Shown: positions 1 to 17,625 of the stretch, in pieces
Layout: each line of letters opens with the position of its first letter
How positions within the stretch are numbered: the stretch's first letter is position 1
Origin: a bacterium
GTDB lineage: Bacteria; JALSQH01
Assembly (NCBI GenBank): GCA_026985515.1
Contig: JALSQH010000037.1
Span: 1-18,017 of the forward strand
Length of the DNA stretch: 18,017 nt
Reading direction: 5' to 3'
Position numbers and translations under genes: made by a program
Notes under the pieces: generated by a model
The model's database searches: none
What the model saw: only the letters and a program-made list of their open reading frames with translations
What the model was told of the DNA's origin: nothing

Positions 1-2
1 AG

Positions 3-77
3 TACACAGCAAAATATGGAGGTTATGTGGCAGCAGAGAGATTGAAACGATATGTTAAAAGATTAATGGAAAAATGA
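3..77 (+). CDS. C-terminal end of an unidentified protein (partial)
   Basis: An open frame enters from the left edge and ends at TGA 75-77; the 24 visible residues include AKYGGYVAAERLKRYV and the frame ends RLMEK. The stop overlaps the ATG of the next gene (ATGA), which points to translational coupling in one operon with the glycosyltransferase. The tail is basic and probably helical. Too little is visible to assign a family; a sugar-metabolism or glycosylation enzyme would fit the neighbour but is only a guess. Confidence 0.6.
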   Translation, partial: YTAKYGGYVAAERLKRYVKRLMEK

Positions 78-1219
78 AGGTCCTCTTTTTCACAACTTCA
101 TATCCTCTCTCAGAGAATGACCCATTCCCGGGAGGGATATTTATCCACAAACTTGCCCTTCACCTGCAGAAAAGAGGGATAAAGGTTACCGTTGTTGCCC
201 CTCATGTAAGAGATGTACCCGACAACTACTTTATTGAAGGCATCGAAGTTATAAGAGTGAAATACTTCTTCAAAAAGATGGAAAACCTCTCAACTTTTCC
301 CGGAGGAATTCCCGGTCTGCTGAAAAGGGGCAGTCCCTTACTTTTCACGCTTCCCTTTCTCATGGGGGCAGGTACCTACAAAATATTCACCCTTGCAGAG
401 GAGTATGACCTTCTCCATGTTCACTGGCTATTCAATCTTTACGCGGCGATTCCCTTCAAATTAAAAGTGAAAAAACCGGTTTTAGTTACTGTTCACGGAA
501 GTGACTTCAATCTTTTTGAAAAACTTTCACCTGCCCGCATACTCATGAGATACTGTGACGCAATAGTAACCGTAAACACCACACAGGAAAGAAAACTGAA
601 GAAAAAATTTCCCCATGTGTATCACATTCCCAATGGTGTGGAAGATAACTTCTCACCTCTACCATCTGGCATCACAACCATTGGTGGTACAGGAAGTTTC
701 TCAAAAAATAAAAACTTCAAAACCCTGGCAAAGGCTCTTCTGCTGCTCAGAAAAGAGGGAATTAAATTCAGGGCAATTTTTATTGGTGACGGAGAGGAGA
801 GGGAAGAAATTGAGAGAATAGTGCAGCCATTGAGGGAAGACATCCAGATAACAGGATATATTCCCAACAGAGAAGTTTTAAACATGTTGAAAAAACTTCA
901 CATATTTGTCCTCCCCTCCTTCTCAGAAGGTCGCTCCATTGCTCTTTTAGAGGCAATGGCAACAGGCAGGGCGATTGTGGCATCAGATATTCCCCAGAAC
1001 AGAGAAATAATAAGAGATGGTGTAAATGGACTTCTTTTTGACCCGAATTCACCGGAGGATCTCAAAAATAAATTGAAATCCCTCATTGAAAACAGGGAAA
1101 GGTTGATTTTTCTGGCAAAAAACGCCTATACTACTATAAAGGAAATGAAACTCTCATGGGAAGAGGCTGCCAGAAAATATGCTGAACTCTACGAAAAACT
1201 TTTAAAAGGAGGGAGTTGA
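74..1219 (+). CDS. GT4-family (GT-B fold) glycosyltransferase
   Basis: Predicted retaining glycosyltransferase that moves a sugar from a nucleotide-sugar donor to a glycan or lipid acceptor at the cytoplasmic face of the membrane. The N-terminal Rossmann domain (1-190) shows the acceptor-side glycine loop PFPGGIFIHKL (18-27), HVHW (115-118) and TVHGSDFN (139-146). The C-terminal donor-binding domain (about 200-370) contains IPNGVE, IGDGEE and the EX7E motif (E285 in SEGRS, E293 in LLEAMA), typical of glycosyltransferase family 4. The length of 381 aa is normal for the family. The start ATG overlaps the stop of the preceding gene, and the stop lies next to the start of the aldehyde dehydrogenase. 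Acceptor and donor cannot be read from sequence; surface polysaccharide or glycolipid synthesis is the usual role. Confidence 0.9.
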   Translation: MKVLFFTTSYPLSENDPFPGGIFIHKLALHLQKRGIKVTVVAPHVRDVPDNYFIEGIEVIRVKYFFKKMENLSTFPGGIPGLLKRGSPLLFTLPFLMGAGTYKIFTLAEEYDLLHVHWLFNLYAAIPFKLKVKKPVLVTVHGSDFNLFEKLSPARILMRYCDAIVTVNTTQERKLKKKFPHVYHIPNGVEDNFSPLPSGITTIGGTGSFSKNKNFKTLAKALLLLRKEGIKFRAIFIGDGEEREEIERIVQPLREDIQITGYIPNREVLNMLKKLHIFVLPSFSEGRSIALLEAMATGRAIVASDIPQNREIIRDGVNGLLFDPNSPEDLKNKLKSLIENRERLIFLAKNAYTTIKEMKLSWEEAARKYAELYEKLLKGGS

Positions 1220-2640
1220 TGCCTGAGAAGAAAAGGCTGTTTATCAACGGGGAGTGGAGGGAAACAGAGGAATATGAGGAAAACATCAACCCCTACAATG
1301 GAGAACTCATAGGGTACATTCCCATTGCATCTGAGCGTGATGTAGAGGATGCCATTCAGGCCGCAGTTAAAGCCTTTGAGAAGACCAGGTGGCTCTCAGC
1401 CTACGATAAATCAAAAATTCTGGAGAGAATCAGGGATGGCATAGAAAAAAGGAAAAAAGAACTCACAGAAATGATAGTGAGAGAGTCGGGCAAACCATAC
1501 CAGTATGCCCTCGGTGAAGTAAATAGAGCAGTAGTAACCTTCACATTTGCAGCAGAAGAGGCAAAGAGAATTGGTGGAGAAGTTTTCCCTGTGGATATTC
1601 AGGAGAACACAAAGAATTATCGTGCATTTTACAAAAGATTTCCTCTGGGACCAATACTCGCCATAACCCCCTACAACTTTCCTCTGAATCTGGTAGCTCA
1701 TAAAGTTGCTCCAGCCATTGCAGCAGGAAACACAGTGGTGCTGAAACCACCACCACAGGCGCCCTTCACCTCACTGATCCTCGCTGAAATTATTGAAGAA
1801 GCGGGAGCTCCTCCGGGAATGGTAAATGTGGTTCCAACCACAGTGGAAAGGGCAGAGAAGATGGTAAGGGACGAAAGATTTAAACTCCTCTCCTTCACAG
1901 GAAGTCCAAGAGTTGGCTGGTACCTGAAGAGTATTGCGGGAAAGAAAAAGGTTCTGCTTGAACTGGGAGGAAATGCTGGAGCAGTGGTGGATGAAAGTGC
2001 TGACCTGGATTTTGCTGCATGGAGACTCGCAATTGGAGGTTTTGCCAATGCGGGGCAGGTATGCATAGCTGTGCAGAGAATCTATGTTCACTCCAGGATT
2101 TATGACCAGTTTCTGGAAAAATTTAAGAGAGAGGTGGAAAAACTGAAAGTGGGAGACCCAATGGATCCAGACACAGTTTTTGGACCCCTCATTGATGAAA
2201 AATCTGCAGACAAGGTGGAGAGGTGGATCAAAGATGCCATTGACAATGGAGCCATAATTATTACAGGAGCAAAGAGACATGGAAACATCATTGAGGCAAC
2301 CATAATTTCAGATGTGAGAAAGGATCTTCCTGTCTACTGCGAGGAGGTCTTTGGACCCGTTGTCATAACAGAACCCTTTGACAGATTTGAAGAGGCAATA
2401 GATAAGGTCAACGATTCTCAGTACGGATTACAGGCGGGAGTTTTCACCAATAATCTCAAAAACACCTTCTACGCCATTGAACACCTCGATGTTGGAGGAG
2501 TAATAATCAACGATTATCCAACATTCCGCGTGGACAACATGCCATATGGAGGCATAAAGGATTCAGGGCTGGGGAGGGAAGGCTTAAAATACGCCATTGA
2601 AGAGATGACAGAAATTAAAAACGTTGTTTTCAGATTTTAG
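1219..2640 (+). CDS. Aldehyde dehydrogenase superfamily protein (GAPN/lactaldehyde dehydrogenase-like)
   Basis: NAD(P)-dependent oxidation of an aldehyde to the acid, cytoplasmic. From the ATG at 1219 it is 473 aa, the usual length. Seen: the oxyanion-hole Asn in TPYNFP (N153), cofactor-binding Lys in LKPPP (K176), FTGSPRVGW (227-234), the general base Glu in LLELGG (E248), the catalytic Cys in NAGQVCIAVQR (C282) and EEVFGPVV. In-frame TTG 1216 lies only two bases after GGAGGG (1208-1213), whereas ATG 1219 is correctly spaced and partly overlaps the upstream TGA (1217-1219), so ATG is preferred. The closest recognisable groups are non-phosphorylating glyceraldehyde-3-phosphate dehydrogenases and archaeal-type lactaldehyde dehydrogenases; the substrate cannot be fixed from sequence alone. 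Confidence 0.9.
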   Translation: MPEKKRLFINGEWRETEEYEENINPYNGELIGYIPIASERDVEDAIQAAVKAFEKTRWLSAYDKSKILERIRDGIEKRKKELTEMIVRESGKPYQYALGEVNRAVVTFTFAAEEAKRIGGEVFPVDIQENTKNYRAFYKRFPLGPILAITPYNFPLNLVAHKVAPAIAAGNTVVLKPPPQAPFTSLILAEIIEEAGAPPGMVNVVPTTVERAEKMVRDERFKLLSFTGSPRVGWYLKSIAGKKKVLLELGGNAGAVVDESADLDFAAWRLAIGGFANAGQVCIAVQRIYVHSRIYDQFLEKFKREVEKLKVGDPMDPDTVFGPLIDEKSADKVERWIKDAIDNGAIIITGAKRHGNIIEATIISDVRKDLPVYCEEVFGPVVITEPFDRFEEAIDKVNDSQYGLQAGVFTNNLKNTFYAIEHLDVGGVIINDYPTFRVDNMPYGGIKDSGLGREGLKYAIEEMTEIKNVVFRF

Positions 2641-2679
2641 AACAAAACATGAGAATAGGATAATTAAGAGTATAACTTT

Positions 2680-2709
2680 TCTTGTCAAGATTATGATGAA
2701 TCTTCAAGA
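2680..2709. terminator. Hairpin between convergent genes
   Basis: TCTTG (2680-2684) pairs with CAAGA (2705-2709) and AAGATT (2687-2692) with AATCTT (2699-2704), with a 2-nt bulge and a 6-nt loop. It lies between the stop of the aldehyde dehydrogenase and the stop of the convergent lipoprotein gene. It has no clear U-tract on either strand, so a terminator role is only suggested by position. Confidence 0.35.
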
Positions 2710-2711
2710 GA

Positions 2712-4064
2712 TCATTGAGGAGAAGGGAGAGAAAATTGGAAAAGTGGAATAACCTGCTTTTCTCCTCCTGCCGGTATTTTTAGATTTAACTCGCTCCCGG
2801 TGAGTATGGGGGAAAAGCTCTGAAAATCATCATTAAGATAGAAGAGTTTCCCTATTTTTACCTCACACTCATCGCCAGAGAGATTTATCAGTGCTATGTT
2901 TTTAATAGTCAGAGAACTGACCGGAGCTGGCAATTTTAAAACAACTCTCTTCCAGCCTTTGAAATTCCAGGCGAGGGAAGAAGTAGCATTGGAAATTTCC
3001 TCACCACTGTCAAGAAGAACCCGCATGCCAATCTGACAATCGTCATCATCAATGTACAGGTCCATGTAGAGATAATAGTTAAGAGGGGCAAGGGAGTTAA
3101 CCTGATCAGTGAGATCCTCAGTTGAAATCTTTTTCTCCCTCTCCATCTCCCACTCCATAATAAGATAGCTCCAGGGAAGCTGATCAAGGTAATCCTCCCT
3201 TGTGTGAAGGGAGAGGTCTGGTAAAATCAGAGGAGCAAACAAAAGCTGACCACTCTGATCCTCAACCTTTCCCTCAGCTACAAGGCCATGATCTGATGGG
3301 GCAACGGAAAGAAGGGGATGACCAAGATAATTTTCACCTTTAAATGGAGTGTCTTTGGTTTCATTATCCCTCTTCCACATTTCGCCACTCTCAAGGTCCA
3401 CAGTGAAAGCGTTTTCAATATCGGCAGTTCTCCCCCAGGCATACATAAGATAACCGGGTACCAGTCCGGTGCCACCATCCTCATTGGAGTAGTAAAGAAC
3501 ATAGATCAGTTTTGAACCATCCCTTCTGCACACCCAGAAAAGGGGAAGATCAGAGAGTGAATTGTAGGGAACGCTTCTTCCATTAACCGAGAGGCTTTTT
3601 GCAGAGTATCCCAGAAGATATGGATAATGCTCCAGACACTCTTCAGGAACTGAGGAAATCCTTTCAAGCCGAACCTTCTCAAGGGTTACCTTTCCCTTTT
3701 CTGCTGGACTCTTATCCACTGAATATTTAAGGGTGACCTGAAACTGCCCCTTCTCAAGCCTCCCCACAAATAGCCTGTATGTAAAATGCGGGTTCCAGAG
3801 CACAAGATCCCCAAGCCAGTTTTCAAGGGAATCGTAGGCATCAATAACCACGGAACTTTCCTCTCTGTCCCATCTGAATCCCTTTCCTTTAACTGAGAGC
3901 GTCAAATAATACCATCCCGTCTCCGTAACAGGAAGAGAAAATGTTACCTGCGGAAAGGAGGAGGAGAGGACAACTTTCTCTTCTTCCTCCTTCCCCTTCT
4001 CCTTACAGGAAAAAATCAAAATCCCTGAGAAAACCAAAAGCAACAGAGATAAATACCTTCTCAT
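2712..4064 (-). CDS. Predicted lipoprotein of unknown function
   Basis: 450 aa. The N-terminus is a lipoprotein signal: MRRY, a hydrophobic stretch, then lipobox IFSC with Cys20, followed by the charged stretch KEKGKEEEEK. The mature protein should therefore be lipid-anchored outside the cytoplasmic membrane or at the outer membrane. The body is rich in beta-strand-type sequence with many Trp and Tyr. The region near residues 25-135 and the C-terminal region near 330-425 (LLDSGEEISNATSS, then FKGWKRVVLKLPAP) resemble jelly-roll carbohydrate-binding-like modules, but I recognise no family. It is the last gene of the operon, and its ATG overlaps the stop of the HPF-sigma gene by four bases. Whether it is a stress output of that operon or a passenger cannot be decided from sequence. 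Confidence 0.8.
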   Translation of the reverse strand: MRRYLSLLLLVFSGILIFSCKEKGKEEEEKVVLSSSFPQVTFSLPVTETGWYYLTLSVKGKGFRWDREESSVVIDAYDSLENWLGDLVLWNPHFTYRLFVGRLEKGQFQVTLKYSVDKSPAEKGKVTLEKVRLERISSVPEECLEHYPYLLGYSAKSLSVNGRSVPYNSLSDLPLFWVCRRDGSKLIYVLYYSNEDGGTGLVPGYLMYAWGRTADIENAFTVDLESGEMWKRDNETKDTPFKGENYLGHPLLSVAPSDHGLVAEGKVEDQSGQLLFAPLILPDLSLHTREDYLDQLPWSYLIMEWEMEREKKISTEDLTDQVNSLAPLNYYLYMDLYIDDDDCQIGMRVLLDSGEEISNATSSLAWNFKGWKRVVLKLPAPVSSLTIKNIALINLSGDECEVKIGKLFYLNDDFQSFSPILTGSELNLKIPAGGEKQVIPLFQFSLPSPQ

Positions 4065-5050
4065 TCCTCTTTAAGTTTCTTCAGCAGTTTTTTCAGAGCA
4101 TTTATGAGTGTTTCGTGAATTTCTTCCGTTTTCTTCCCTAAAACCATAGCAATTTCAAAAGGTTCAAGTTCTTCAAAAATGAAGAGTGTCAGTACTTTTC
4201 TCTCCATCGGAGAAAATCCTGGAAGAATTTTCTTTATTTTATCAACAATTTCCTCTTTCATCGCTGTGAGGTCAGGAACATCCTGAAGTTCTCCCTCCAC
4301 ATCAACAGAGGGAATGAGATCCTCCAATTTCAACCACGCATCAGGCTGATAAAAATCGAGTATCTCGCTTCCAAGATCAGAAACCTCCTCCTCTGGAGGC
4401 TCAAGAGGAACATCCTCATCAATGCTAACCTCTTCGCTTTTCTCCTCTGAAATTGTTTCAATCTCCTTCATCAGAGTTTCTGCCACTGCTTTGTACAGCA
4501 ACTTCTTGTTAATATTGGCACTCTTTACGAGACCCTCTTCAACAGCTCTCTCAATGGCTTCATCAACTACATCTTCAAAGTCAACAAGTTTCAGTGATTC
4601 CCAGTCATGGTAGAGATGAGCTGCTGCCATCCTTCTGGCAAATGAAATCAACTCTGGCCTTAACTTTGCAATGGCACTCTGAATTTCAGGGGTTAACTTT
4701 CTTGTAAGAAAAGCTATTTTCTCTTCTTTTTCAATTCTGTGGTTATCAATAATCTTTTCTTTCCTCCTCTTCACCTCCCTTATTAAGGCCTTGAAAAGGC
4801 CATCCATTGCATGGGCAAGCTGTGAATGGGAATTGCTCACAGTAAGATCAAGATCCTCTGGTACATGAAGGTATCCCTTAAGGAGAAACTCCTTAGTTCT
4901 GTTTGAGCGATCTATCTCCAGCCTGAGGGATGGGTTGTGGCTGGAAAATTTTCCAAGAACTCTCTCAAGTTTTTCAACTTTTCTCTTCAGAATCTTTTCC
5001 TCTCTGTTGCTCAGAACAACATCCTCTTTTTTTACGATCTGGAGTTCCAT
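4061..5050 (-). CDS. HPF/RaiA-like domain fused to sigma-70-like regions 2 and 4
   Basis: 329 aa with three recognisable parts. Residues 1-105 match the S30AE ribosome-hibernation fold: a helix with KVEKLERVLGKF, strand SLRLEIDRSN, strand GYLHVPEDLDLTV, then a helix with AMDGLFKALIREVKRRKEK. Residues about 125-200 (LRPELISFARRM, then DFEDVVDEAIERAVEEG) look like sigma-70 region 2. An acidic linker (about 200-265) follows. Residues 268-328 (ILPGFSPMERKVLTLFIFEE, then EPFEIAMVLGKKTEEIHETL) look like the region 4 helix-turn-helix. SD GGGAGG stands 4-5 nt before the ATG. The gene follows the Clp-fold protease by 15 nt and overlaps the lipoprotein gene. It could tie ribosome state to transcription, or be a ribosome-associated factor that has reused sigma-like helices. 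Domain calls are by eye; the HPF part and region 4 are clearer than region 2. Confidence 0.8.
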   Translation of the reverse strand: MELQIVKKEDVVLSNREEKILKRKVEKLERVLGKFSSHNPSLRLEIDRSNRTKEFLLKGYLHVPEDLDLTVSNSHSQLAHAMDGLFKALIREVKRRKEKIIDNHRIEKEEKIAFLTRKLTPEIQSAIAKLRPELISFARRMAAAHLYHDWESLKLVDFEDVVDEAIERAVEEGLVKSANINKKLLYKAVAETLMKEIETISEEKSEEVSIDEDVPLEPPEEEVSDLGSEILDFYQPDAWLKLEDLIPSVDVEGELQDVPDLTAMKEEIVDKIKKILPGFSPMERKVLTLFIFEELEPFEIAMVLGKKTEEIHETLINALKKLLKKLKEE

Positions 5051-5065
5051 ACTACCTCCCGTTTT

Positions 5066-5896
5066 TTATTTGTTGTTTCCTTTTTTATATGGTGCCGGAA
5101 TGTATTCCACAGCAGGCTGATGCCTTACCGGCTGAGGGAAAAGAGCCATTAGCTGATACACTTCCCTCGGAATCTCGCTCTTCACATTCAGTCCCAATTC
5201 CACAGCCCTTTCATAGGTAATTGGAAAATCATGGGTGAAATATCCCTCAGAAAGTAACCTGGCCACTTCTTTTGCCCTCTCATCTTCCATTTTATCCTTG
5301 AGCAACCAGTAAACAAAATCATAAACCTGCTTTATTGCCTTTTTTGACATATCAATGAGGACAAGGGTTCTATCTTCTATTTTATCATACGGTTTCATTT
5401 CTGGAATTTTTACCAGGCTTGCCGCAGGAAGTTCCCCAAGTTGCGGATCCACCGGCCCAAGAACTGCATTTGGATCAAGGTAGATTTCATCAGCTGCAAG
5501 AGCTATCAATGTTCCTCCACTCATTGCGTAGTGGGGTACAAAGACTCTCACGGGACCTTTGTGATTTTTAATTGCCCTTGCAATCTGCTCGGCGGCAAGG
5601 ACAAGGCCACCGGGGGTGTGAAGAATAAGATCAATGGGCATATCGTCAGGAGTGAGCCTGAAGGCTCTCAAAACTTCTTCAGAATCATTCACATCAATGT
5701 ATCTGAAAACGGGGAAACCAAGGAAACTCATGGTTTCCTGACGATGAATGAGAGTTATTACCCTCGATTTCCTCTTCTTTTCTATTTTGTGAATAAGATT
5801 CAACCTCGCACTCTCAAGCATCTGCTGTTTGATCCACGGCAGCAGAGCTATAAGCATTAAAAACAACCAGAAAATACTGTTAATGGTATGGTCCAT
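5066..5896 (-). CDS. Membrane-anchored Clp-fold serine protease (SDH/SppA-like)
   Basis: 276 aa from ATG 5896. An in-frame TTG at 5902 abuts the Shine-Dalgarno AGGAGG (5903-5908), while ATG 5896 has a 6-nt spacer, so I use ATG. One N-terminal membrane segment (about 7-22, IFWLFLMLIALLPW) is followed by a soluble Clp/crotonase-fold domain. Seen: LHTPGG (93-97), a ClpP/SppA-type oxyanion loop, and the nucleophile Ser126 in HYAMSGGTLIALAADEI, then LGPVDPQLG. This matches the SDH proteinase family common in archaea and thermophilic bacteria and related to signal peptide peptidase; a Lys general base is expected for the family but I cannot assign it. Likely role: cleavage of membrane or secreted peptides. 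It sits 16 nt after the rhomboid gene. Confidence 0.85.
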   Translation of the reverse strand: MDHTINSIFWLFLMLIALLPWIKQQMLESARLNLIHKIEKKRKSRVITLIHRQETMSFLGFPVFRYIDVNDSEEVLRAFRLTPDDMPIDLILHTPGGLVLAAEQIARAIKNHKGPVRVFVPHYAMSGGTLIALAADEIYLDPNAVLGPVDPQLGELPAASLVKIPEMKPYDKIEDRTLVLIDMSKKAIKQVYDFVYWLLKDKMEDERAKEVARLLSEGYFTHDFPITYERAVELGLNVKSEIPREVYQLMALFPQPVRHQPAVEYIPAPYKKGNNK

Positions 5897-5912
5897 AACC
5901 AACCTCCTTTTA

Positions 5913-6617
5913 CTACCAGGGCCTCATCACATGGATGATGCTTACCTCTTCTTTTTTAAAAACCCTCATTATCAATCCCCATACCACCCCGAAGGAAAAT
6001 CCACCTATGTGTGCCCACCAAGCCACTCCTCCCTGATGAGGTAGAAAGGCCATTGTTGTTCCATTTATGAACTGAATGAAAAACCAGAGAAACAGGTATA
6101 GAAAGGCAGGCAAGTAAACGATGTCTATGAAAATAAAAATTACGAGAAGAGTCAATACCCTCGCATAGGGGTAGAAAACCATATAGGCACCCAGTACTCC
6201 CGCTATGGCTCCACTGGCGCCGATGAGAGGAATGCTTGAATAAGGGTTAAATATGTACTGGAGAAAGACGGCAAAAAAACCTGAAGCTATGTAGAAAAAA
6301 AGATAGTGTAGATGACCAAGCCTGTCCTCCACATTGTCGCCAAAAATGTAGAGAAACCACATGTTACCTATTATGTGAAACCACCCTCCGTGGAGAAACA
6401 TCGATGTCAAAACTGGCAGAAACAGAGTTTCAAGGGGGAACCCCCTTTCAAGTCCAACTGTGAATCTGATCGGAACAAAACCATAGTGGGCTATGAACAA
6501 CTGCAGATTTCTCCCGAGGGAAAGTTCAAAGAAAAAGACAAGAAAGTTCAGAACAATGAGGGAATAATTGACAATGGGAAATCTGCGTGAGGGAATATCA
6601 TCCTTCAGCGGGAACAC
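5913..6617 (-). CDS. Rhomboid-family intramembrane serine protease
   Basis: 234 aa integral membrane protease that cleaves transmembrane segments. Seen: the HxxxN motif in FHIIGNMWFLYIFGDNVEDR (H81, N85), the nucleophile in GASGAIAGVLGAYM (S135) and the dyad histidine in WWAHIGGFSFG (H203). About six to seven hydrophobic segments are present and the length is typical. The start is GTG (complement of 6615-6617), supported by AAGGAG seven bases upstream; that SD overlaps the stop region of the upstream baeRF gene. Pairing with a second membrane protease immediately downstream suggests sequential proteolysis or joint membrane-protein quality control; the substrate is unknown. Confidence 0.93.
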   Translation of the reverse strand: MFPLKDDIPSRRFPIVNYSLIVLNFLVFFFELSLGRNLQLFIAHYGFVPIRFTVGLERGFPLETLFLPVLTSMFLHGGWFHIIGNMWFLYIFGDNVEDRLGHLHYLFFYIASGFFAVFLQYIFNPYSSIPLIGASGAIAGVLGAYMVFYPYARVLTLLVIFIFIDIVYLPAFLYLFLWFFIQFINGTTMAFLPHQGGVAWWAHIGGFSFGVVWGLIMRVFKKEEVSIIHVMRPW

Positions 6618-6628
6618 CTTCTATCTCC

Positions 6629-7777
6629 TTATACGAACCTGAGCAGGGCAGCCATTCCACCCTTCTCTTCAATCTTCGTTTTCAGGTAATTAACATGCTT
6701 AACCCTGGAATTGTTTATGATGGCTAAATCGTAGGTCTTTGTGAGTATATTCTCCACCTTCTCCATTCTGCTACCACAGTAGGGACACTCTTCCCCTTCC
6801 AGGGTGATGTAATAGCAGGATGGACAGGCAACACCCTCCCTGCTGAAGTAGGGTGAAACAAGCAAAATATCCACCTTACCCTCATACAGGGCATCCAGGG
6901 TTTCCTTTACACCGGTTACACCTTTTCCATTTTTACCAATTTCTTCTTCAAGCTTTTTGAACAATTCCTCTTCCTCTTCCTTCTTTATTTCCTTTTCTAT
7001 TTCCTCCATCCTCTTAAGGATATCGCCTCTTGTTGCATTCATGTCCAGATTGGTAACTTCCCTGATAACCTTTGATTTAACCTCATAGATAAGGTTCTCT
7101 TTAAACTGGGGAAGTAGTTCCTGGTGGGAGGCAAGAATAACATAGTCAATATCCTCCTCCTCTATGATCTGTCTTGCTATGAGCATGATGTTCTTAAAAT
7201 GCCGGTAAATATGGTACATCACGTGCCTCTGAATTCTCTTTTCCACTGCACCAAAATCGTTGTAATCTTCCAGTTTGTGCATTCTCTCTCTCAGATTCAT
7301 GTGTTCCCTGATCTTTTTCATAAAGTATTCCACAAACCTCACCCTCTCCCTGTCAAAAAGAATGAGCAGATACCTTTTGAAGTTAGCCATGACCTCATCT
7401 AAAAGGAGATAGTTGGGTAAATCTGAAACAACAATGAAATCGTTTCTTGGTAGTTCCTCCGGTATTTTGAAAAGTGTGTCAAGGTTGTTGGCACTGCTGT
7501 AAAACCACACAACAGACTCCACTCCAGAGAGATCAATGGAATTCAATTCTCTCTCCATGTAATCAAGGTCAGAATAGATTCTCTTCAATTCATTTCTCGT
7601 GTATCTGGCCTCTTCCCTCAGCTTTTCCTTTGTCTCCTTGACGAGATCCTTCAGTTTGATCTTCCACTCCTTTGCCTTGAACCAGACTGGATTGACAGAG
7701 AGATAAAGATTGATTATTGGATGTTCACTCTTGATAAACTCCCTCAGTGCCCGGATTTCTCTGTTCTGAACAATCAT
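6629..7777 (-). CDS. Bacterial archaeo-eukaryotic release-factor-like protein (baeRF) with zinc ribbon
   Basis: 382 aa, resembling bacterial relatives of eRF1/Pelota/Vms1. The N-terminal part (1-110) is charged and helical. The middle domain (about 112-240) has the eRF1 domain 2-like pattern: FIVVSDLPNYLL, YLLILFDRERVRFVEYF, then FGAVEKRIQRHVMYHIYRHF and DYVILASHQELL. The C-terminal domain-3-like part (ETLDALYEGKVDILLVSPYF) has a zinc ribbon inserted, with C318, C321, C331 and C334 (CxxC-x9-CxxC). A long Glu/Lys coiled coil lies at about 255-282. I see no GGQ motif, so peptide release as in eRF1 is not indicated; ribosome binding, rescue or tRNA handling is more likely. First gene of the operon: SD GAGGAGG is 5 nt before the ATG. 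Confidence 0.82.
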   Translation of the reverse strand: MIVQNREIRALREFIKSEHPIINLYLSVNPVWFKAKEWKIKLKDLVKETKEKLREEARYTRNELKRIYSDLDYMERELNSIDLSGVESVVWFYSSANNLDTLFKIPEELPRNDFIVVSDLPNYLLLDEVMANFKRYLLILFDRERVRFVEYFMKKIREHMNLRERMHKLEDYNDFGAVEKRIQRHVMYHIYRHFKNIMLIARQIIEEEDIDYVILASHQELLPQFKENLIYEVKSKVIREVTNLDMNATRGDILKRMEEIEKEIKKEEEEELFKKLEEEIGKNGKGVTGVKETLDALYEGKVDILLVSPYFSREGVACPSCYYITLEGEECPYCGSRMEKVENILTKTYDLAIINNSRVKHVNYLKTKIEEKGGMAALLRFV

Positions 7778-7791
7778 TTCAACCTCCTCAC

Positions 7792-7819
7792 TTGTTTTCG
7801 CTTTTCCGCTATCTATAAT
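7792..7819 (+). promoter_or_regulatory. Sigma-70 promoter for the thioesterase gene
   Basis: -35 TTGTTT (7792-7797), 16-nt spacer, -10 TATAAT (7814-7819), a perfect -10 hexamer. A start near 7826 gives a leader of roughly 29 nt before ATG 7855. Confidence 0.6.
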
Positions 7820-7842
7820 ATAACATAATCAGCCTTTTTGAA
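7815..7842 (-). promoter_or_regulatory. Possible promoter for the baeRF operon
   Basis: On the minus strand: -35-like TTCAAA (complement of 7837-7842), 16-nt spacer, -10-like TATTAT (complement of 7815-7820). It shares its -10 bases with the oppositely directed thioesterase promoter. The -35 is weak, so this is tentative. Confidence 0.4.
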
Positions 7843-7847
7843 AAAGG
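7833..7847 (+). repeat. Perfect inverted repeat overlapping the ribosome-binding site
   Basis: CCTTTTTGAAAAAGG is self-complementary around its central G and overlaps the AAGGA used by the thioesterase ATG 7855. It could be an operator half-site pair or a weak RNA hairpin that hides the SD. The sequence is AT-rich, so chance is possible. Confidence 0.3.
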
Positions 7848-7854
7848 AAGTACC

Positions 7855-8223
7855 ATGGAACAAAAAGCAAGGCTCCACGCATCAAGGCAATGGGTGGGAG
7901 AACCGGTTTACATCGGGGATGGATATGCAGAGGTGGAATTCTTCACATTCTCCGAAATGGCAGTTGAAGTTGATGGAACTGTAAACAACGGCTTCATATT
8001 TGGCCTTGGAGAATTTGCTGCGGCTATTGCCGTCAATATTGAAAATGTCTTCATAGAAAGGGCTGAAGTAGAGTTTTTAAAACCGGTTAGAATTGGTGAA
8101 AGGGTGGAAGCCACAGGGAGGGTGGTGGAGAAAAAGGGGGAGCGCTACATAGTGGAAGTGGAGGCAAAAAGTTTTGAAGGGGTCGTGATGAGGGGAAGAT
8201 TCTGGTGCAGGGTGGAGGGATAG
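7855..8223 (+). CDS. Hotdog-fold thioesterase-like protein
   Basis: 122 aa, the size of a single hotdog domain. The central helix NNGFIFGLGEFAAAIAVN matches the PaaI/FapR-like pattern in which an acidic residue, usually D and here E in GLGEFAA, sits on the long helix. The C-terminal strands AEVEFLKPVRIGERVEATGR and YIVEVEAKSF are typical of acyl-CoA thioesterases. Likely hydrolyses or binds an acyl-CoA/acyl-ACP; cytoplasmic oligomer. It stands alone, divergent from the baeRF operon, and the RM genes downstream have their own promoter. There is no DNA-binding domain, so it is not a full FapR. Substrate unknown. Confidence 0.82.
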   Translation: MEQKARLHASRQWVGEPVYIGDGYAEVEFFTFSEMAVEVDGTVNNGFIFGLGEFAAAIAVNIENVFIERAEVEFLKPVRIGERVEATGRVVEKKGERYIVEVEAKSFEGVVMRGRFWCRVEG

Positions 8224-8228
8224 GTTAC

Positions 8229-8257
8229 TTGTTTTAAAAAGATTTGCAGATTATACT
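8229..8257 (+). promoter_or_regulatory. Promoter of the restriction-modification pair
   Basis: -35 TTGTTT (8229-8234), 17-nt spacer, -10 TATACT (8252-8257). The predicted start near 8264 is only about 5 nt before ATG 8269, and there is no Shine-Dalgarno, so the methyltransferase mRNA may be leaderless. Confidence 0.55.
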
Positions 8258-8268
8258 AAGTAAAAACG

Positions 8269-9522
8269 ATGGACCATATCGTTAAAATTATCATCGGCGA
8301 TAGCCGTAAGATGTTAGAAATTGGAGATAATACCGTTCAATTAGTTGTTACTTCCCCTCCTTACTGGTCCATAAAAAATTATGGCATCAAAAATCAAATT
8401 GGATATGGCCAGACGCTCCATGAATATCTAAAAGACCTCTACAGAGTCTGGAAAGAAGTCTACAGGGTCCTGGAACCAGGAAGAAGGATGGTTATAAACA
8501 TAGGAGACCAGTTTGCAAGATCCATAGTGTACGGGAGATACAAAATTATACCTCTTCACGCAGAAATAATCGCCCAATGTGAAGACATCGGTTTTGATTA
8601 CATGGGCTCCATAATATGGCAGAAAAAAACAACAATGAATACCACTGGTGGAGCAAATGTGATGGGTTCCTATCCATATCCTCCAAATGGAATGATTGAG
8701 ATAGATTACGAACATATTCTGATATTCAAGAAACCGGGAAAGACAAAAAAAATACCAAAAAACATCAAAGAGCAATCCAGACTAACTAAAGAGGAATGGA
8801 AAGAATATTTTTACGGACACTGGAATTTTGGAGGTGCGAAACAGATAGATCATCAGGCAATGTTCCCGGACGAATTACCCAAAAGGATAATTAAGATGTT
8901 CAGTTTTGTTGGAGAAACTATACTTGATCCTTTTTTAGGAAGTGGTACCACTGCAACAGTTGCCATGGAGTTGGGGAGGAAGGTAATCGGATACGAAATT
9001 AACGAAGACTTCCTGACAATAATCAAAAGTAAAATCAAATTTGACGATTCTACAATATTCAAAAATGAAATTGAAATTATCAAAAGAAATAAACCTATTG
9101 AGCCTGAGCCTATTTTTTACACGCCAAGAATAAAAGATGCGAGTCCGATAATTCAACCGGACAAGCTGAGATTTGGTAAAAACAAGCTTTATAAGGTCAT
9201 GGAAATACTTGAAGATGGAAAATTAAAATTGGATACAGGACTTGTTGTAAAACTTAGAGGGATAATTATAAGGGATAAAGATGCCACACTATCCTACATG
9301 AGAAAATATTTACTTAAAAAGCAGGTTTATTTAAAATTTGACAAAGGCTATATTGCAAGTAAAGAGGGTGTGGAAGCATATATTTATCTTAAGAACAGAA
9401 TATTTGTGAACAAGTACCTCATCAAAAACGGCTTAGCTACAGTAGATAGACAACTTGATTTTGATATGAAGGAGAAATTTATTGAAATTGAGGAAACATC
9501 TCATCAAAAGATTAAAAACTAA
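8269..9522 (+). CDS. MjaI-type DNA methyltransferase with C-terminal SNase-like domain
   Basis: 417 aa. Residues 1-255 form a beta-class amino-methyltransferase with motif IV first (TSPPYW, 28-33, the SPPY form typical of N4-cytosine enzymes) and the SAM-binding motif I late (DPFLGSGTT, 220-228, then GYEINEDF). The following restriction gene resembles MjaI, so methylation within CTAG is likely. Residues about 305-395 resemble a staphylococcal-nuclease OB fold: KLDTGLVVKLRGIIIRD, KKQVYLKFDKG, EAYIYLKNRIFVNKYLIKNG. The catalytic Arg/Asp/Glu/Arg set of true SNases is not seen, so the domain is probably non-catalytic and may bind DNA or the partner. The gene is more AT-rich than its neighbours, suggesting transfer. 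ATG is used without an SD. Confidence 0.85.
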   Translation: MDHIVKIIIGDSRKMLEIGDNTVQLVVTSPPYWSIKNYGIKNQIGYGQTLHEYLKDLYRVWKEVYRVLEPGRRMVINIGDQFARSIVYGRYKIIPLHAEIIAQCEDIGFDYMGSIIWQKKTTMNTTGGANVMGSYPYPPNGMIEIDYEHILIFKKPGKTKKIPKNIKEQSRLTKEEWKEYFYGHWNFGGAKQIDHQAMFPDELPKRIIKMFSFVGETILDPFLGSGTTATVAMELGRKVIGYEINEDFLTIIKSKIKFDDSTIFKNEIEIIKRNKPIEPEPIFYTPRIKDASPIIQPDKLRFGKNKLYKVMEILEDGKLKLDTGLVVKLRGIIIRDKDATLSYMRKYLLKKQVYLKFDKGYIASKEGVEAYIYLKNRIFVNKYLIKNGLATVDRQLDFDMKEKFIEIEETSHQKIKN

Positions 9523-9554
9523 TTAAAGGAAACATCAGGTCACGGAGATCTTAA

Positions 9555-10160
9555 ATGGAATTCAAAATTACAATTAAGGAAATCAGAAAGCTAATGGAAA
9601 TAGATACTCCCGATTTTCCAAAATATGCAACTCAGATAATAAATCTTGCCAACCAGAATGCGCAAGCGACAAGACCCAGGGTTGTCGGGCAGATGAGTGA
9701 ACTGATAAGAGAATTTACTGGTAAGACCCTAAAAGAATGGGAAGATTGGTATCTGAAAAGGTATCCAGATTCAATAGACATAGCCACTAAGAAGATACTG
9801 GATATGATAAATAATTTCAAAGATGTTATTAACCAGATAGACGAAGAAATGATAAAACAATGGGTCAGAGACCTGGTAATAGTAAAAACTTTTATCGGTT
9901 TGCGGTTTCAGGAAGCTATTTTAAAGAAAATTGCTGAAAAATTTAATACAGAATACAGACTTGCAACATCTGAAGAAGAAAGTAAAGGAATTGATGGGTA
10001 TATTGGGAATATTCCTATCAGCCTGAAACCTATTTCATATCAATCCAAAAAAATGTTAACTGAATTGATAGATGTTGACATTGTTTATTATGCCAAACAG
10101 AAAGATGGGCTAAAAATTATGATCCCGGATGAATTAGAAAATAAGTTAAAACAATTGTGA
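9555..10160 (+). CDS. MjaI-family type II restriction endonuclease
   Basis: 201 aa. The N-terminal half has the family pattern NLANQNAQATRPRVVGQMSE, then GKTLKEWEDWYLKRYPDSID. A PD-(D/E)xK-like centre is visible: a helix with E120, then D147 in GIDGYIG and S156-L-K158, in which Ser takes the usual acidic position. Family members (Methanocaldococcus MjaI) cut CTAG; the specificity here is inferred. It lies 32 nt after the methyltransferase with GGAG seven bases before the ATG, so methylase is made first. Same AT-rich composition as the methyltransferase. Confidence 0.82.
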   Translation: MEFKITIKEIRKLMEIDTPDFPKYATQIINLANQNAQATRPRVVGQMSELIREFTGKTLKEWEDWYLKRYPDSIDIATKKILDMINNFKDVINQIDEEMIKQWVRDLVIVKTFIGLRFQEAILKKIAEKFNTEYRLATSEEESKGIDGYIGNIPISLKPISYQSKKMLTELIDVDIVYYAKQKDGLKIMIPDELENKLKQL

Positions 10161-10229
10161 TTAAAAATAAAAAGAATACAAAAAATATTTACTCTGGAAA
10201 TAAATTCAAGAAGCTTCTAAAAAATCTTC

Positions 10230-12635
10230 TTACCCACCATACACCACCAGATCCCACCATCTCTCAACGGCGGGGATAAATTCAAATCTGTTGCCTCTGT
10301 CGTCGCTGATTTCAATGGACGAATCTGCTTTGCTCTTCACCCTTATCTTCACCCCCTGGGGCAGGGTATAGAAACAGGGTGGTGAGTTCCCCTCACAGGA
10401 TTTAAGATACTGTGAGTTCAGTTTCAGAGTGGAAAGATCCAGCGCATTTACAACTGAATTTACGAACTCATTTCCCTCATAATCCTTCCATTTAACGGTA
10501 TGCTCTCCGGGGAAAACCCATACTTCCCGCCAGTTATTCCTTCCTTCCAGCGTCACCACATTCTCAGACTCCTGAAAGGCGGAAATTGTATCAATGTCCC
10601 CCGCTATCAGTTCAAGAATTGCACCATCCCTCACAAAAACAGGTATCCTCTCAAGGGGGGCATTTGCCTCTATCCATTCACCCCTTGAATTGACTGACCA
10701 TTTTTCCCAGAAATCATACCACTTCCCCCGGGGCAGATAGAGAATCCTGTGTCGTGCCCCCCTTTCAATGACCGGTGCAACAAGTAAAAATGGGCCGAGC
10801 ATATACTGATAAGGCATATCATAGAGGGAGGCATCCTCGGGAAACTCCATGAGCATGTGTCTTATGAGGGGGATACCCTTCTTTCCCTCTGTTACAGCTT
10901 CACTGTAAAGATAGGGGAATAGTCTCTGATGCCAGATTGCATAGAATCTGTACCAGTTGAGGGTATACTGATCCCGGTAAAAATTCCAGTTTTTAAATGC
11001 AAAATATCCGTGATGTGTTCTCATAACAGGGGAGAAAGCACCAAATTCTGTCCATCTGATGAAAAGTTCCCTGTCTGATGGTGGGTTACCGAGGGACATA
11101 TACCCGGCAATGTCGGACCCGTACATCAGCATTCCACTCCAGCTCAGATTAACCGCCACTGCAATGGCAGTTGGTAAACCATCATCAACTGCAAAATCTG
11201 TGCTCTGGTCTCCCGGCCAGTAAACAGGGGTTAAAGCCTGATCCCCAATATAGCCTGATCTGGTAAAATAGACAAAGTTTCTTTCATCACTGTACTTTTC
11301 CATCACTTCAAGGTTCAGCCTGTGCCAGAGGAGGGGGTAGAGGTTGTGAAATTTTTTCCCCTCTCCTTCCGCCACCCTGCTGTCATATGGGAGCCACTCA
11401 CCATAATCAGCCATCCAGCCATCAACACCCATTTCAATTGCCTTTTTCATCTTATTCTCCGCCCACTCCCATGCCGCAGGATTGGTGAGATCAAGGATGG
11501 AACCCCAATCCAGGGTCGGAATCAACATCATGTAGGGTGAGCCATCTTCATGCTTTATGAGATAATCATGCGGGATCTCATTCCAGATACGGGACTTTGA
11601 ATCAACAAATGAGTTAAAATAGACCAGGAAGTGAAATCCCATTCTGTGGAGTTCAGCTACCATTGTCTCAAAATGGGGATAGAGATCCCTGCCCAGATCC
11701 CAGTTGTAGGTAAATGAGTAACTACCATCCTTTCCCCTTTTCACCCCACCACCCCAATCCTCCGTCCAGATAACTGCTGAAGGTATGTGATTTTCCCTTA
11801 TGATTCTCGCCACCTCAAGAACCCTGTCCTCCCCACCAACTGCATCATTCCAGGGAGAAAAGTACCACTTCTGGGGCAGGAGAGGCTTGCCTGTGAGATC
11901 TGTGTAGATCTCCACGCTCCTTTTGGGGGAATCAGCAATCAAAACATATATTTTCAGCTTAGAAGTATCACCCTCCATGCTCCATTGATCCTCCCTGTTG
12001 TGGCAGAGATCAAACTCGGTCAGGTATGGAGTATCCACCAGGAAGCCAAAACCTGCAGGATTGTAGAAATATGGAAGCGGATAGTAAGAAGAATGCCTGT
12101 TGCCAACAACCATCCAGAGTGGATTTACATCTGATTCAAGCAACTTCCTCAATCCTTCTTCAGATGTCCAGACGGGTATATACTCTCCTTTCTGGTCACT
12201 CTTTATAGTCTGGGCTCCAAAACCCAGAAAATGGTCATTACTCCTGCAACTGAAGATCAACTTCAGGGCGTTTCCATTTCCAGAAGCCTCAATTTTCACA
12301 ATATTTTTTCCTGAGAGGGAGAAATTCATCTTTACACCGTTGTTCCACTCAACAACTCTCCCGGAAACTCTTTTTATTTTTTCACCTACCCTTTCCCATA
12401 TATATTTTTTCTCAAACTTCGTACTTCCACCAAAAAAATATGTTTTCAATTCTCTCAAAGAAGAGACTGTACCTTTAATTTCAAAGATCTCCTTTCCTGC
12501 GGAGTAAAGCACAACTGAATTATCAGTGACATAGAGGTATGTTCCTCCACCAAGGGATACTGTTTTGTTCATTCCTGATGGAACACAGGCAAAAAGAAAA
12601 AGGAAAAGAAAGATAATAACGGCTCTCCCTTTCAT
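10230..12635 (-). CDS. GH31 family alpha-glycosidase, predicted lipoprotein
   Basis: 801 aa retaining glycosidase. The lipoprotein signal MKGRAVIIFLFLFLFAC has lipobox Cys17, so the enzyme should be surface- or periplasm-anchored. N-terminal beta-sandwich to about 250, then a (beta/alpha)8 barrel: IWTEDWGGG, nucleophile D410 in DGWMADYGEWLP, acid/base D476 in YWPGDQSTDF, YGSDIAGY, RWTEFGAFSPVMRTH; C-terminal beta domains follow. The WMADYGE form is shared with YihQ-type sulfoquinovosidases, but the RxxW pair that binds the sulfonate in YihQ appears as SFTY here (about 307-310), so an ordinary alpha-glucoside or another substrate is more likely. The ATG overlaps the stop of the DppC-like permease by four bases, suggesting that its product is imported by that transporter. 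Confidence 0.92.
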   Translation of the reverse strand: MKGRAVIIFLFLFLFACVPSGMNKTVSLGGGTYLYVTDNSVVLYSAGKEIFEIKGTVSSLRELKTYFFGGSTKFEKKYIWERVGEKIKRVSGRVVEWNNGVKMNFSLSGKNIVKIEASGNGNALKLIFSCRSNDHFLGFGAQTIKSDQKGEYIPVWTSEEGLRKLLESDVNPLWMVVGNRHSSYYPLPYFYNPAGFGFLVDTPYLTEFDLCHNREDQWSMEGDTSKLKIYVLIADSPKRSVEIYTDLTGKPLLPQKWYFSPWNDAVGGEDRVLEVARIIRENHIPSAVIWTEDWGGGVKRGKDGSYSFTYNWDLGRDLYPHFETMVAELHRMGFHFLVYFNSFVDSKSRIWNEIPHDYLIKHEDGSPYMMLIPTLDWGSILDLTNPAAWEWAENKMKKAIEMGVDGWMADYGEWLPYDSRVAEGEGKKFHNLYPLLWHRLNLEVMEKYSDERNFVYFTRSGYIGDQALTPVYWPGDQSTDFAVDDGLPTAIAVAVNLSWSGMLMYGSDIAGYMSLGNPPSDRELFIRWTEFGAFSPVMRTHHGYFAFKNWNFYRDQYTLNWYRFYAIWHQRLFPYLYSEAVTEGKKGIPLIRHMLMEFPEDASLYDMPYQYMLGPFLLVAPVIERGARHRILYLPRGKWYDFWEKWSVNSRGEWIEANAPLERIPVFVRDGAILELIAGDIDTISAFQESENVVTLEGRNNWREVWVFPGEHTVKWKDYEGNEFVNSVVNALDLSTLKLNSQYLKSCEGNSPPCFYTLPQGVKIRVKSKADSSIEISDDRGNRFEFIPAVERWWDLVVYGG

Positions 12636-13432
12636 TCTCCACCACCCGGCTGAATTTTCTCCTGGAGCCAGTCCCCGATGAAGTTAAATGCCATCACAGT
12701 TAACATTATCATAATTCCCGGAAAAATGGAAATATGGGGTGCCTCTCTCAGAAAATCTATGCCATCGCTCAGTATTCTTCCCCAGCTGGGAATATCCTGC
12801 GGCCCGAGTCCCAGAAATGAAAGGGAAGACTCGGCAAGTATCGTCCCTGCCATTCCAAAGGTTGCCTGCACTATCACCGGTGGAAGAGTTTCAGGAATGA
12901 TGTGAATATAGAGGATTCTCCACAGGGGCAAACCTTCAGCAATTGCCGCCTGAACAAATTCTCTCTCTCTGATAGATAGGACCTGTCCCCTCACAAGTCT
13001 GGCATATCCCACCCATCCCATTGCAGAGAGGGCAATAATGATATTTTTCATCCCGGGACCAAGGAAAGCTGCGAGGGCTATGGCCAGGAGAATTCCCGGA
13101 AAGGCAAGAAGAATATCTATTAATCTCATAATGAGTTCATCAACGATTCCACCCACATAGCCGGAAATACCACCAATCAGGATCCCTGCAATAAAAGATA
13201 TGGCAACGGCAGTTGTGGAAATGGTGAGGGAGACCCTGGCACCATAGGCAACCATTGTGAAAATATCCCTGCCAAGTTTGTCCTGTCCCATGGGATGGGC
13301 AAGGGAGGGACCCCTTAATCCCTGATCAAGGTGTATTTCATAGGGGGAATATGGTGAGAGTAGTGGACCAAAAACTGCAAACAGAATCATGAGAAGCACA
13401 ATCACCACACCGGTTATAAACAGTTTCCTCAT
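12632..13432 (-). CDS. Dpp/Opp-type ABC transporter permease, DppC-like
   Basis: 266 aa membrane permease. N-terminal segment LFITGVVIVLLMILFAVFGP, then the characteristic HPMGQDKLGRDIF, and the cytoplasmic EAA loop (FVQAAIAEGLPLWRILYIHI, then IPETLPPVIV) that contacts the ATPase. LAESSLSFLGLGPQDIPSWG is typical of DppC/OppC. Four-base overlaps on both sides place it between DppB and the GH31 glycosidase. No ATPase or solute-binding protein gene lies in the window, so they must be encoded elsewhere. The substrate may be an oligosaccharide, as in sugar-importing members of this family in thermophiles, rather than a peptide. Confidence 0.93.
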   Translation of the reverse strand: MRKLFITGVVIVLLMILFAVFGPLLSPYSPYEIHLDQGLRGPSLAHPMGQDKLGRDIFTMVAYGARVSLTISTTAVAISFIAGILIGGISGYVGGIVDELIMRLIDILLAFPGILLAIALAAFLGPGMKNIIIALSAMGWVGYARLVRGQVLSIREREFVQAAIAEGLPLWRILYIHIIPETLPPVIVQATFGMAGTILAESSLSFLGLGPQDIPSWGRILSDGIDFLREAPHISIFPGIMIMLTVMAFNFIGDWLQEKIQPGGGE

Positions 13433-14349
13433 TTTTCCAGTCTTACTCTCGGATCAATGATTGTGTAGGTTATATCCACAAGGGTATTTACAATCACATA
13501 TGTGAGTGCAATGACAAGGACCGTCCCCTGCACCAGGGGATAATCTCTGGTATTTATGGCATCAATGAGCAACCTCCCTATGCCTGGCCAGCTGAATATT
13601 GTTTCAGTTATAATTGCTCCTGAGAGAAGGGCACCAAATTGAAGTCCCATAATTGTAACAACAGGGATCATGGCGTTTCTCAGGGCATGTTTCACAATAA
13701 CCCGAAACTCAGGGAGACCCTTGGCTCTTGCTGTTGTAATGTAAGCTTCCTTAAGCACTCCTGTAAGGGAGCTTCTCGTTATTCTGGTGAGAATGGCAGC
13801 CAAAGCAGTTCCCAGAGTTATGGATGGAAGGACATAACTCGCAAATCCACTCTTCCCTGATACGGGAAACCATCCCAATTTAAGAGAAAAGAAGAGAATG
13901 AGAACCGGGCCCAGGAAAAAATTGGGGATGGAGACACCCAGAAGGGAAATAACCGCTGTCAAATTATCCCAGAAGGAGAATTGCTTTACCGCAGCATAAA
14001 TCCCGGGAGGAATTGCTATTAAAATTGCCACAATCATTGAAACTAAGGCGAGGGTGAAGGTGGCGGGAAATCTCTCCTCAATGATTTTCATTACCTTTTC
14101 TTTGTAGAAGATGGATCTACCAAGATCAAGATGAACTACCCTGTTGAGGTAATCAACATATTGACGATAAAGGGGCTTATCAAGACCAAGCTGATGACGA
14201 AGAGCAACTCTGTCAGCCTGGACAGCATTTTCCCCCAGCATAATTTCAACCGGGTCCCCCGGTGTGAGGTGAATCAGAAAAAAAACGAGGGTTACAACTC
14301 CCCAGATTGTGGGGATGAGAAGAAGAACCCTTCTTACAAGAAATCTCAT
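13429..14349 (-). CDS. Dpp/Opp-type ABC transporter permease, DppB-like
   Basis: 306 aa. Starts MRFLVRRVLLLIPTIWGVVT, followed by LTPGDPVEIMLG, a DppB/OppB hallmark. About six membrane segments. EAA loop AYITTARAKGLPEFRVIVKH, then ALRNAMIPVV. C-terminus with ETIFSWPGIGRLLIDAI and TIIDPRVRL. It forms a heterodimer with the DppC-like protein. The ATG overlaps the stop of the upstream DUF523 gene (ATGA), and its own stop overlaps dppC's start, so the order and stoichiometry are set by coupling. Confidence 0.94.
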   Translation of the reverse strand: MRFLVRRVLLLIPTIWGVVTLVFFLIHLTPGDPVEIMLGENAVQADRVALRHQLGLDKPLYRQYVDYLNRVVHLDLGRSIFYKEKVMKIIEERFPATFTLALVSMIVAILIAIPPGIYAAVKQFSFWDNLTAVISLLGVSIPNFFLGPVLILFFSLKLGWFPVSGKSGFASYVLPSITLGTALAAILTRITRSSLTGVLKEAYITTARAKGLPEFRVIVKHALRNAMIPVVTIMGLQFGALLSGAIITETIFSWPGIGRLLIDAINTRDYPLVQGTVLVIALTYVIVNTLVDITYTIIDPRVRLEK

Positions 14350-14777
14350 TCTACCCCTATTATCTCGATTCCTTCCCTTTCAAATAAAGCAGAGGTTACG
14401 CCTCTCCCGTCTTCAAGATTTCCATCTATGTAGACCCTGTTTACCCCACAGGATGGACTCTTCTCTTTCATATAGGCTCTCTTAATACCTGCAAGTCTGG
14501 CCAGTTTTAACACCTCCTCCGCCCCTCTAATAAAGTTCTCAGTCACATCTTCCCCAGTTTCAATCACCACAACCCTTGCCCTCCCTTCCAGGACAGATTT
14601 TCCCTCTCCTCCGGTGAAATAAGCGGGTTTCCTCGGTGTGGGCAGTCCACCTAACTGTTCAGGACAGACTACTATCCCGCCCTCCCTCTGGAAAATTTTC
14701 ACAATCTCTTCCCTCATTGAGTTTTTTCCGTCGTAGCGACAGTTAATACCAAGGAGACAGGCAGAAAAGAGGTTCAT
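14346..14777 (-). CDS. DUF523/TudS-like Fe-S protein
   Basis: 143 aa from ATG 14777. A TTG at 14789 would add four residues, but family members begin directly before SACLLG, so ATG is preferred; it lies one base after the upstream TAG. Three conserved cysteines are present: C7 in SACLLGINCRYDGKN, C38 in VVCPEQLGGLPTPRKP and C110 in KEKSPSCGV. In the characterised thiouracil desulfurase TudS the equivalent three cysteines hold an Fe-S cluster that removes sulfur from thiolated pyrimidines; many DUF523 proteins are uncharacterised, so activity here is inferred. Its place between a DUF2378-like gene and sugar/peptide transporter genes is unexplained. Confidence 0.85.
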   Translation of the reverse strand: MNLFSACLLGINCRYDGKNSMREEIVKIFQREGGIVVCPEQLGGLPTPRKPAYFTGGEGKSVLEGRARVVVIETGEDVTENFIRGAEEVLKLARLAGIKRAYMKEKSPSCGVNRVYIDGNLEDGRGVTSALFEREGIEIIGVE

Positions 14778-14778
14778 T

Positions 14779-15345: not shown

Positions 15346-15374
15346 TTATCCTGCTCCTTTCCAGGTTATATTTC

Positions 15375-15403
15375 AATTTACCACGGGGGGAAAGAAAAGG
15401 CAA
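15375..15403 (-). promoter_or_regulatory. Possible promoter of the DUF2378-GH31 operon
   Basis: Minus strand: TTGCCT (complement of 15398-15403), 17-nt spacer, TAAATT (complement of 15375-15380), about 30 nt upstream of the ATG. Both hexamers are four of six matches, so it is tentative; read-through from the HEPN cluster is an alternative. Confidence 0.3.
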
Positions 15404-15436
15404 GAGGAGAGATCATTAAGGGTACATTCAACCAAA

Positions 15437-15530: not shown

Positions 15531-15555
15531 GGTGGGGGAGCCCCTCCATGTAGGT

Positions 15556-16256: not shown

Positions 16257-16270
16257 AGTGCCATTCCCTC

Positions 16271-16319: not shown

Positions 16320-16367
16320 ATCAGCGGTATAAAGTTTATTATTCCTCATAATCAATCCCTCATTCTC

Positions 16368-17618: not shown

Positions 17619-17625
17619 CGTCTCA

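Follow-up and report, generated by a model that had tools for sequence, protein, structure and literature searches.

Both fusions of the S30AE domain of ribosome hibernation factors and mimics of sigma factors are known. The S30AE domain found in HPF and RaiA (YfiA, protein Y; PF02482) is followed in long HPF by a C-terminal dimerisation domain and is combined in HibA with a CBS module (PMC13324472), and PhyR, a response regulator with a sigma-like domain, binds the anti-sigma factor NepR. In starved Escherichia coli, the silencing of transcription and translation is coordinated by separate factors under shared regulation (Rsd, RMF/HPF; PMC6904343), and RNA polymerase has a hibernating state of its own, for which HelD is a dedicated factor (PMC11102965). 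The subject of this report is a bacterial gene (GTDB lineage Bacteria; JALSQH01) on contig JALSQH010000037.1 of assembly GCA_026985515.1 (positions 1 to 18,017 of the forward strand, the whole 18,017-nucleotide stretch being the window hereafter), which encodes an S30AE domain followed by a half apparently derived from an extracytoplasmic function (ECF) sigma factor. The combination is undescribed in the searchable literature, and we know of no single protein that touches both the ribosome and RNA polymerase in this way. An earlier sequence-only reading of the window had likewise known of no characterised protein of this design, and our literature search found no S30AE-sigma fusion described; PMC13324472 reports a CD-search scan of bacterial HPF fusions, so that an earlier sighting is possible.

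The fusion gene occupies positions 4061-5050 on the minus strand as an open reading frame (ORF) of 329 codons with an ATG start and no internal stops, with a Shine-Dalgarno-like GGGAGGT (5054-5060, minus) immediately 5' of the ATG. On the same strand, the 329-aa product begins with an S30AE/HPF-RaiA domain (residues 1-103; 4742-5050), assigned by a structural match to HPF, the PF02482 score of an orthologue and its basic residues, and continues with a sigma region 2-like domain (residues 118-206; 4433-4699), assigned by a TIGR02937 match and alignment to sigma structures, in which aspartate stands in place of the region 2.2 glutamine. These are followed by an acidic, predicted-disordered linker with the motif FYQPDxxLxLEDLxP (residues 207-259; 4274-4432), recognised by its low model confidence and its conservation, and by a sigma region 4-like helix-turn-helix (residues 260-329; 4064-4273), whose recognition helix is devoid of the canonical DNA-contact residues. 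In Pfam, the protein stays below threshold for both PF02482 (18.1 bits, cut-off 23.7) and Sigma70_r4 (13.9, cut-off 24.1), and it passes the curated sigma-70 family model TIGR02937 over residues 126-326 (47.5 vs 42.9 bits). Codon third positions are the most variable in every main segment of the gene; promoter and terminator scans gave signal at chance level and were uninformative.

This layout departs from each of the described systems. The N-terminal domain is like HPF and RaiA in fold and in most of the basic residues that contact ribosomal RNA (rRNA), whereas the C-terminal dimerisation domain of long HPF has no Pfam match in the protein and the sigma-derived half stands in its place. Relative to HibA, the fusion is bacterial, the order is reversed with S30AE first, and the sigma-like module replaces the CBS module, for which there is likewise no Pfam match. 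PhyR offers an analogy, since it pairs a sensory domain with an ECF-like domain which is itself no sigma factor; here, however, S30AE replaces the receiver domain (no Pfam match in the protein) at the N-terminus, and a NepR-type partner was not found. The order of region 2 fold, acidic linker and region 4 fold is that of the ECF sigma factors (TIGR02937; e.g., sigma-E, AlgU, SigW and SigL), from which the protein differs in being fused behind S30AE, in having lost the region 2.2 glutamine, the region 2.3/2.4 asparagine and the -35 recognition residues, and in belonging to a clade of its own.

To gather relatives we used a two-row profile, which reached other phyla, and then wider profiles. An orthologue in identical gene order is present in genome G001 (JALTID010000235), which belongs to the same family as the source; its S30AE domain is 59% identical to that of the fusion protein and exceeds the PF02482 cut-off (32.6 bits). 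As a short run of N in this record interrupts the linker, the parts were folded separately, and they were joined with X for the Pfam search. Three distant full-length relatives with 25-28% identity to the fusion protein lie above the cut-offs of both PF02482 (40.8, 28.2 and 32.1 bits) and the sigma-70 region 4 model PF08281 (29.5, 35.7 and 26.0 bits), which makes both domain identities certain where the fusion protein alone is sub-threshold. The full-length fusion was found in both genomes searched from its own phylum, in 6 of 40 genomes of the G345/G215 phylum, 2 of 4 of the G365/G098 phylum and 2 of 8 of the G349/G427 phylum, and additionally in G363, which is in none of these phylum lists. 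The fused layout is hence common to 13 genomes from at least five phyla, i.e., the design seen in the window recurs in its own phylum and at least four others; the family is nevertheless rare, with 7 full-length members among the 384 genomes of a broad sample.

Certain relatives retain the sigma-derived half in part or not at all. Near relatives in G348 and G218 (loci L082, 1495-2178, and L083, 1477-2178) comprise only S30AE and the region 2-like domain, without region 4, and in G074 (locus L044, 1235-1938) the relative is interrupted by stops directly after S30AE, with the S30AE part open and the sigma part gone. Behind this broken gene lies a short ORF without a Pfam match but with an HxxxCxxC pattern, as anti-sigma zinc proteins typically have. 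A single scan of the genome contigs returned the already-known sister orthologue as its sole match, and neither viral contigs nor phage records yielded a relative. Candidate fusions suggested by long ORFs around ordinary HPFs (G051, G325, G173, G189, G044 and others) are not sigma fusions, and matches in Acinetobacter and on enterobacterial plasmids (~26% identity; the rows listed named only "hypothetical protein") were excluded from the relatives.

The fusion protein and its G215 relative were modelled with AlphaFold2 without templates from alignments of 11 and 15 rows, respectively, giving models of moderate confidence (mean predicted local distance difference test, pLDDT, 69.5 and 75.7). 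Both display an S30AE fold, a helical region 2-like domain, a disordered acidic linker and a region 4-like helix-turn-helix. The S30AE model superimposes on the HPF structure 4hei with Z 14.7 and a root-mean-square deviation (rmsd) of 1.6 A over 90 residues, and on RaiA of the Balon-RaiA-ribosome structure 8rd8 with Z 13.5. Structural matches in BFVD include S30AE-like phage proteins, e.g., from Cronobacter phage GAP32 and Escherichia phage PBECO4. Residues 118-329 match ECF sigma factors with Z of about 10-11; the rmsd is large, since the two sigma domains have no fixed mutual placement. Taken by itself, region 4 superimposes with an rmsd of 1.4-1.9 over 63-69 residues (3mzy, Z 10.3, rmsd 1.9; 5fgm, Z 10.0, rmsd 1.4). 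A profile search of PDB sequences recovered the HPF/RaiA and sigma families independently. The sequence-only reading had proposed an S30AE pattern in the first ~105 residues and region 2- and region 4-like segments with an acidic linker thereafter, and these results bear out both halves of that proposal: the S30AE fold is present and the C-terminus is sigma-region-4-like.

At the six RaiA positions that we take to contact 16S rRNA (R22, K25, K28, K79, R82 and K86), the S30AE half keeps five basic residues in a comparison with 21 ordinary HPFs: the first three correspond to K, K and R, R82 and K86 both to R, and K79 to alanine. All 14 family members retain a lysine two residues past the site of RaiA K86. 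This half thus appears intact enough for 30S binding to be expected, as we infer by analogy with what is known of the family. The fusion is the sole S30AE protein found in its genome (97.6% complete), where a second weak S30AE match, C20, was rejected as a coiled-coil lipoprotein. In other phyla, each fusion genome that was checked has a further S30AE gene.

The sigma-derived half presents a different picture, which we quantified by comparing 14 family members for region 2 and 12 for region 4 with 33 ordinary ECF sigma factors (the later-found G427 member was left out); as the members are related, these counts are not independent events. The region 2.2 glutamine, presumably the residue that contacts beta-prime, is present in 31 of the 33 ECFs and in none of the 14 family members, which mostly have aspartate instead, and the region 2.3/2.4 asparagine falls from 29/33 to 1/14. 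In the recognition helix of region 4, a glycine found in 22/33 ECFs is glutamate or aspartate in all 12 members, one arginine (18/33 ECFs) is absent from every member and a second (25/33) is retained in a single one; two positions ahead of the former arginine, the residue is still lysine or arginine in 9/12. The net charge of this helix ranges from -2 to +1 in the family as against +1 to +5 in the ECFs. The region 4 scaffold is by contrast kept (Ala 12/12, Glu 11/12, Val/Ile 11/12, Ala 11/12, Leu/Ile 12/12). G427 has an arginine at the second of the two recognition-helix arginine sites and not at the first, and a region 2.3 Trp-Leu-Tyr-Arg is still found in some members, e.g., G365. In a quick tree with some long branches, the sigma parts of the family form one clade apart from the 33 ECFs (Shimodaira-Hasegawa-like approximate likelihood ratio test, SH-aLRT, 100). 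The family-wide stripping of promoter-reading residues speaks for a mimic rather than a working sigma factor, and promoter occupancy is unlikely because the region 2 and recognition-helix residues are lost while the scaffold is kept. By these comparisons the C-terminal half is sigma-derived and probably not a working sigma factor: the sequence-only reading was right about the two-part design, and "sigma factor" is too strong a term for a half that has lost signature residues across the family.

The linker, with pLDDT below 50 at residues 205-249, shows the highest conservation of all segments when the two genera of the fusion's own phylum are compared (86% identity, as against 59% for S30AE, 50% for region 2 and 66% for region 4), and its motif FYQPDxxLxLEDLxP recurs in most of the distant members. 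The portion LEDLxPD...P resembles ordinary sigma linkers; the FYQPD portion looks specific to the family.

The fusion gene is the fourth of five genes in the same direction, separated by 11, 10, 15 and -4 nt. The first (6629-7777, minus) encodes a Balon-related protein of baeRF family 10 (PF18854, 60.9 bits vs 27.1) with CxxC...CxxC pairs near its C-terminus; it is followed by a rhomboid-family membrane protease (5913-6617, minus; PF01694, 120.3 bits) and an SDH-family Clp-fold serine protease (5066-5902, minus; PF01972, 421.9 bits; NF047768, 424.4 over 250). Downstream, a putative lipoprotein gene without a Pfam match (2712-4064, minus) overlaps the end of the fusion gene by 4 nt. This gene order recurs in the sister genus, where the genes are spread over two contig ends and the putative lipoprotein gene again lies 3' of the fusion. 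Like Balon (PMC10901736), whose genes are most often next to raiA, the product of the first gene is aeRF1-related, is encoded near an S30AE gene and matches ribosome hibernation factor models of NCBIfam over nearly its full length (MSMEG_1130, 1.8e-10 over 22-381; Rv2629, 7e-9). Its scores nevertheless lie far below the equivalog cut-offs (40.4 vs 480 and 35.3 vs 320 bits), making it by sequence a Balon homologue and not an equivalog.

In G365 the order on one strand is GroES, GroEL (both named from their sequences), fusion and Balon-like gene, and this Balon homologue is closer than that of the window, matching the AOC03_06830 family, which we take to be Psychrobacter Balon, at 1.7e-21. Next to the G363 fusion lie the SDH and rhomboid genes, in convergent orientation, and the Balon-like gene (locus L104, 2043-3182, minus) adjoins not the fusion but a second S30AE gene (1506-2033, minus) whose product has, by sequence, a cold-shock-like C-terminus. 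In the other fusion genomes the Balon-like gene is unlinked to the fusion or was not found. No recognisable anti-sigma gene lies beside the fusion in the window, and apart from the HxxxCxxC ORF at the broken G074 locus none was found next to the fusion.

Elsewhere in the window, a DNA methylase with an SNase-like C-terminus (8269-9522, plus; PF01555) and an MjaI-type restriction endonuclease (9555-10160, plus; PF09568, 240 bits) form a restriction-modification pair. A HEPN protein gene overlapping a nucleotidyltransferase (MNT) gene, with a second MNT-like gene assigned by sequence only (15556-16256 and 16535-16831, minus), resembles a toxin-antitoxin pair; an NYN-domain protein (16989-17303, minus) is encoded nearby, and 14779-15345 (minus) has a weak haem-NO-binding (HNOB) match (21.0 bits, cut-off 25.5).

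Sequence and predicted structure support the architecture, its conservation, the loss of promoter-reading residues and the gene linkage. To the reading of the fusion as a hibernation factor whose sigma-mimic half couples ribosome idling to transcription, via RNA polymerase or an anti-sigma factor, we give an even chance. When ribosomes idle, the S30AE domain would sit in the mRNA/tRNA channel of the 30S subunit, as HPF and RaiA do, and the Balon-like protein from the same gene cluster would probably act alongside it on idle ribosomes. The sigma-mimic half, to judge by its folds and acidic linker, would contact either the polymerase core or an anti-sigma factor without promoter targeting, so that ribosome idling and transcription would be physically coupled, with polymerase parked or sigma availability altered; both the partner and the direction of coupling are conjectural. 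In favour of this reading are the architecture kept across at least five phyla, the HPF and ECF sigma folds of the two models, the retained rRNA-contact residues, the loss of promoter-reading residues from a kept scaffold, the conserved linker, its being the only S30AE protein found in its genome, and the clustering of a Balon homologue with the fusion in two genera of its own phylum and beside the G365 fusion. Several points weigh against the coupling reading as a whole: the change of the region 2.2 glutamine to aspartate could weaken polymerase binding rather than keep it; the sigma-like half has no known partner; it is, judging from the G348, G218 and G074 sequences, dispensable in some lineages; and in most other fusion genomes an ordinary HPF is present and the Balon-like gene is elsewhere.

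The best-surviving alternative, rather unlikely in our view, is that the sigma fold has been co-opted for binding ribosomes, for dimerisation or as a scaffold, in place of the C-terminal domain of long HPF; the protein would then be a pure ribosome hibernation factor without a link to transcription. This would fit a genome whose sole S30AE protein found is without the long-HPF C-terminal domain, as well as the vanished DNA- and core-contact signatures and the persistence of S30AE where part or all of the sigma half is gone; it sits poorly with the retention of a complete ECF-like layout of region 2, linker and region 4 over large divergence, and the ordinary HPF in most other fusion genomes indicates that the fusion is not simply filling the HPF role there. 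A more elaborate form of the coupling reading, which we advance tentatively and would not favour, is a dual hibernation factor: S30AE would block the 30S decoding channel and the other half would serve as a sigma decoy, contacting the core and laying its acidic linker in the cleft without reading promoters, thereby parking polymerase and bridging an idle ribosome and an idle polymerase.

A narrower version, contained within the coupling reading, is PhyR-like titration alone, in which the mimic would capture an anti-sigma factor when ribosomes idle and release a stress sigma factor unrelated to the fusion, without polymerase contact. The PhyR sigma-like model PF22233 is above its cut-off in G215 (32.4 vs 27.0), the only member for which this is so, it not being listed for the fusion protein of the window; the PhyR and PhyR-sigma-like structures 3n0r and 2lfw are among the profile matches, and lost DNA contacts on a kept scaffold suit a mimic. 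We nonetheless consider this restricted form unlikely, as other members score higher with ordinary region 4 than with PhyR and no anti-sigma gene adjoins the fusion save the short G074 ORF. A genuine alternative sigma factor, tethered by S30AE to idle or free 30S and directing transcription on release, or the reverse, is quite improbable: TIGR02937 is passed, relatives pass PF08281 and the Trp-Leu-Tyr-Arg of region 2.3 survives in some members, yet the family as a whole has lost the DNA-contact Arg/Ser/Gly and the core-contact Gln, the net charge of the recognition helix is -2 to +1 as against +1 to +5 in the ECFs and the window offers no recognisable anti-sigma gene beside the fusion. That an assembly or annotation artefact joined two neighbouring genes, as the sub-threshold Pfam score of each half might intimate, is refuted by the same fusion in independent genomes, the continuous ORF with its own ribosome-binding site and the variable third codon positions, and has next to no likelihood.

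As a conserved protein that joins a hibernation half to a sigma-derived half and is encoded beside other genes that include a Balon homologue, the fusion would allow a link between idle ribosomes and idle polymerase to be tested on a single purified protein, and the fusion family may furnish a precedent for sigma mimicry beyond PhyR.
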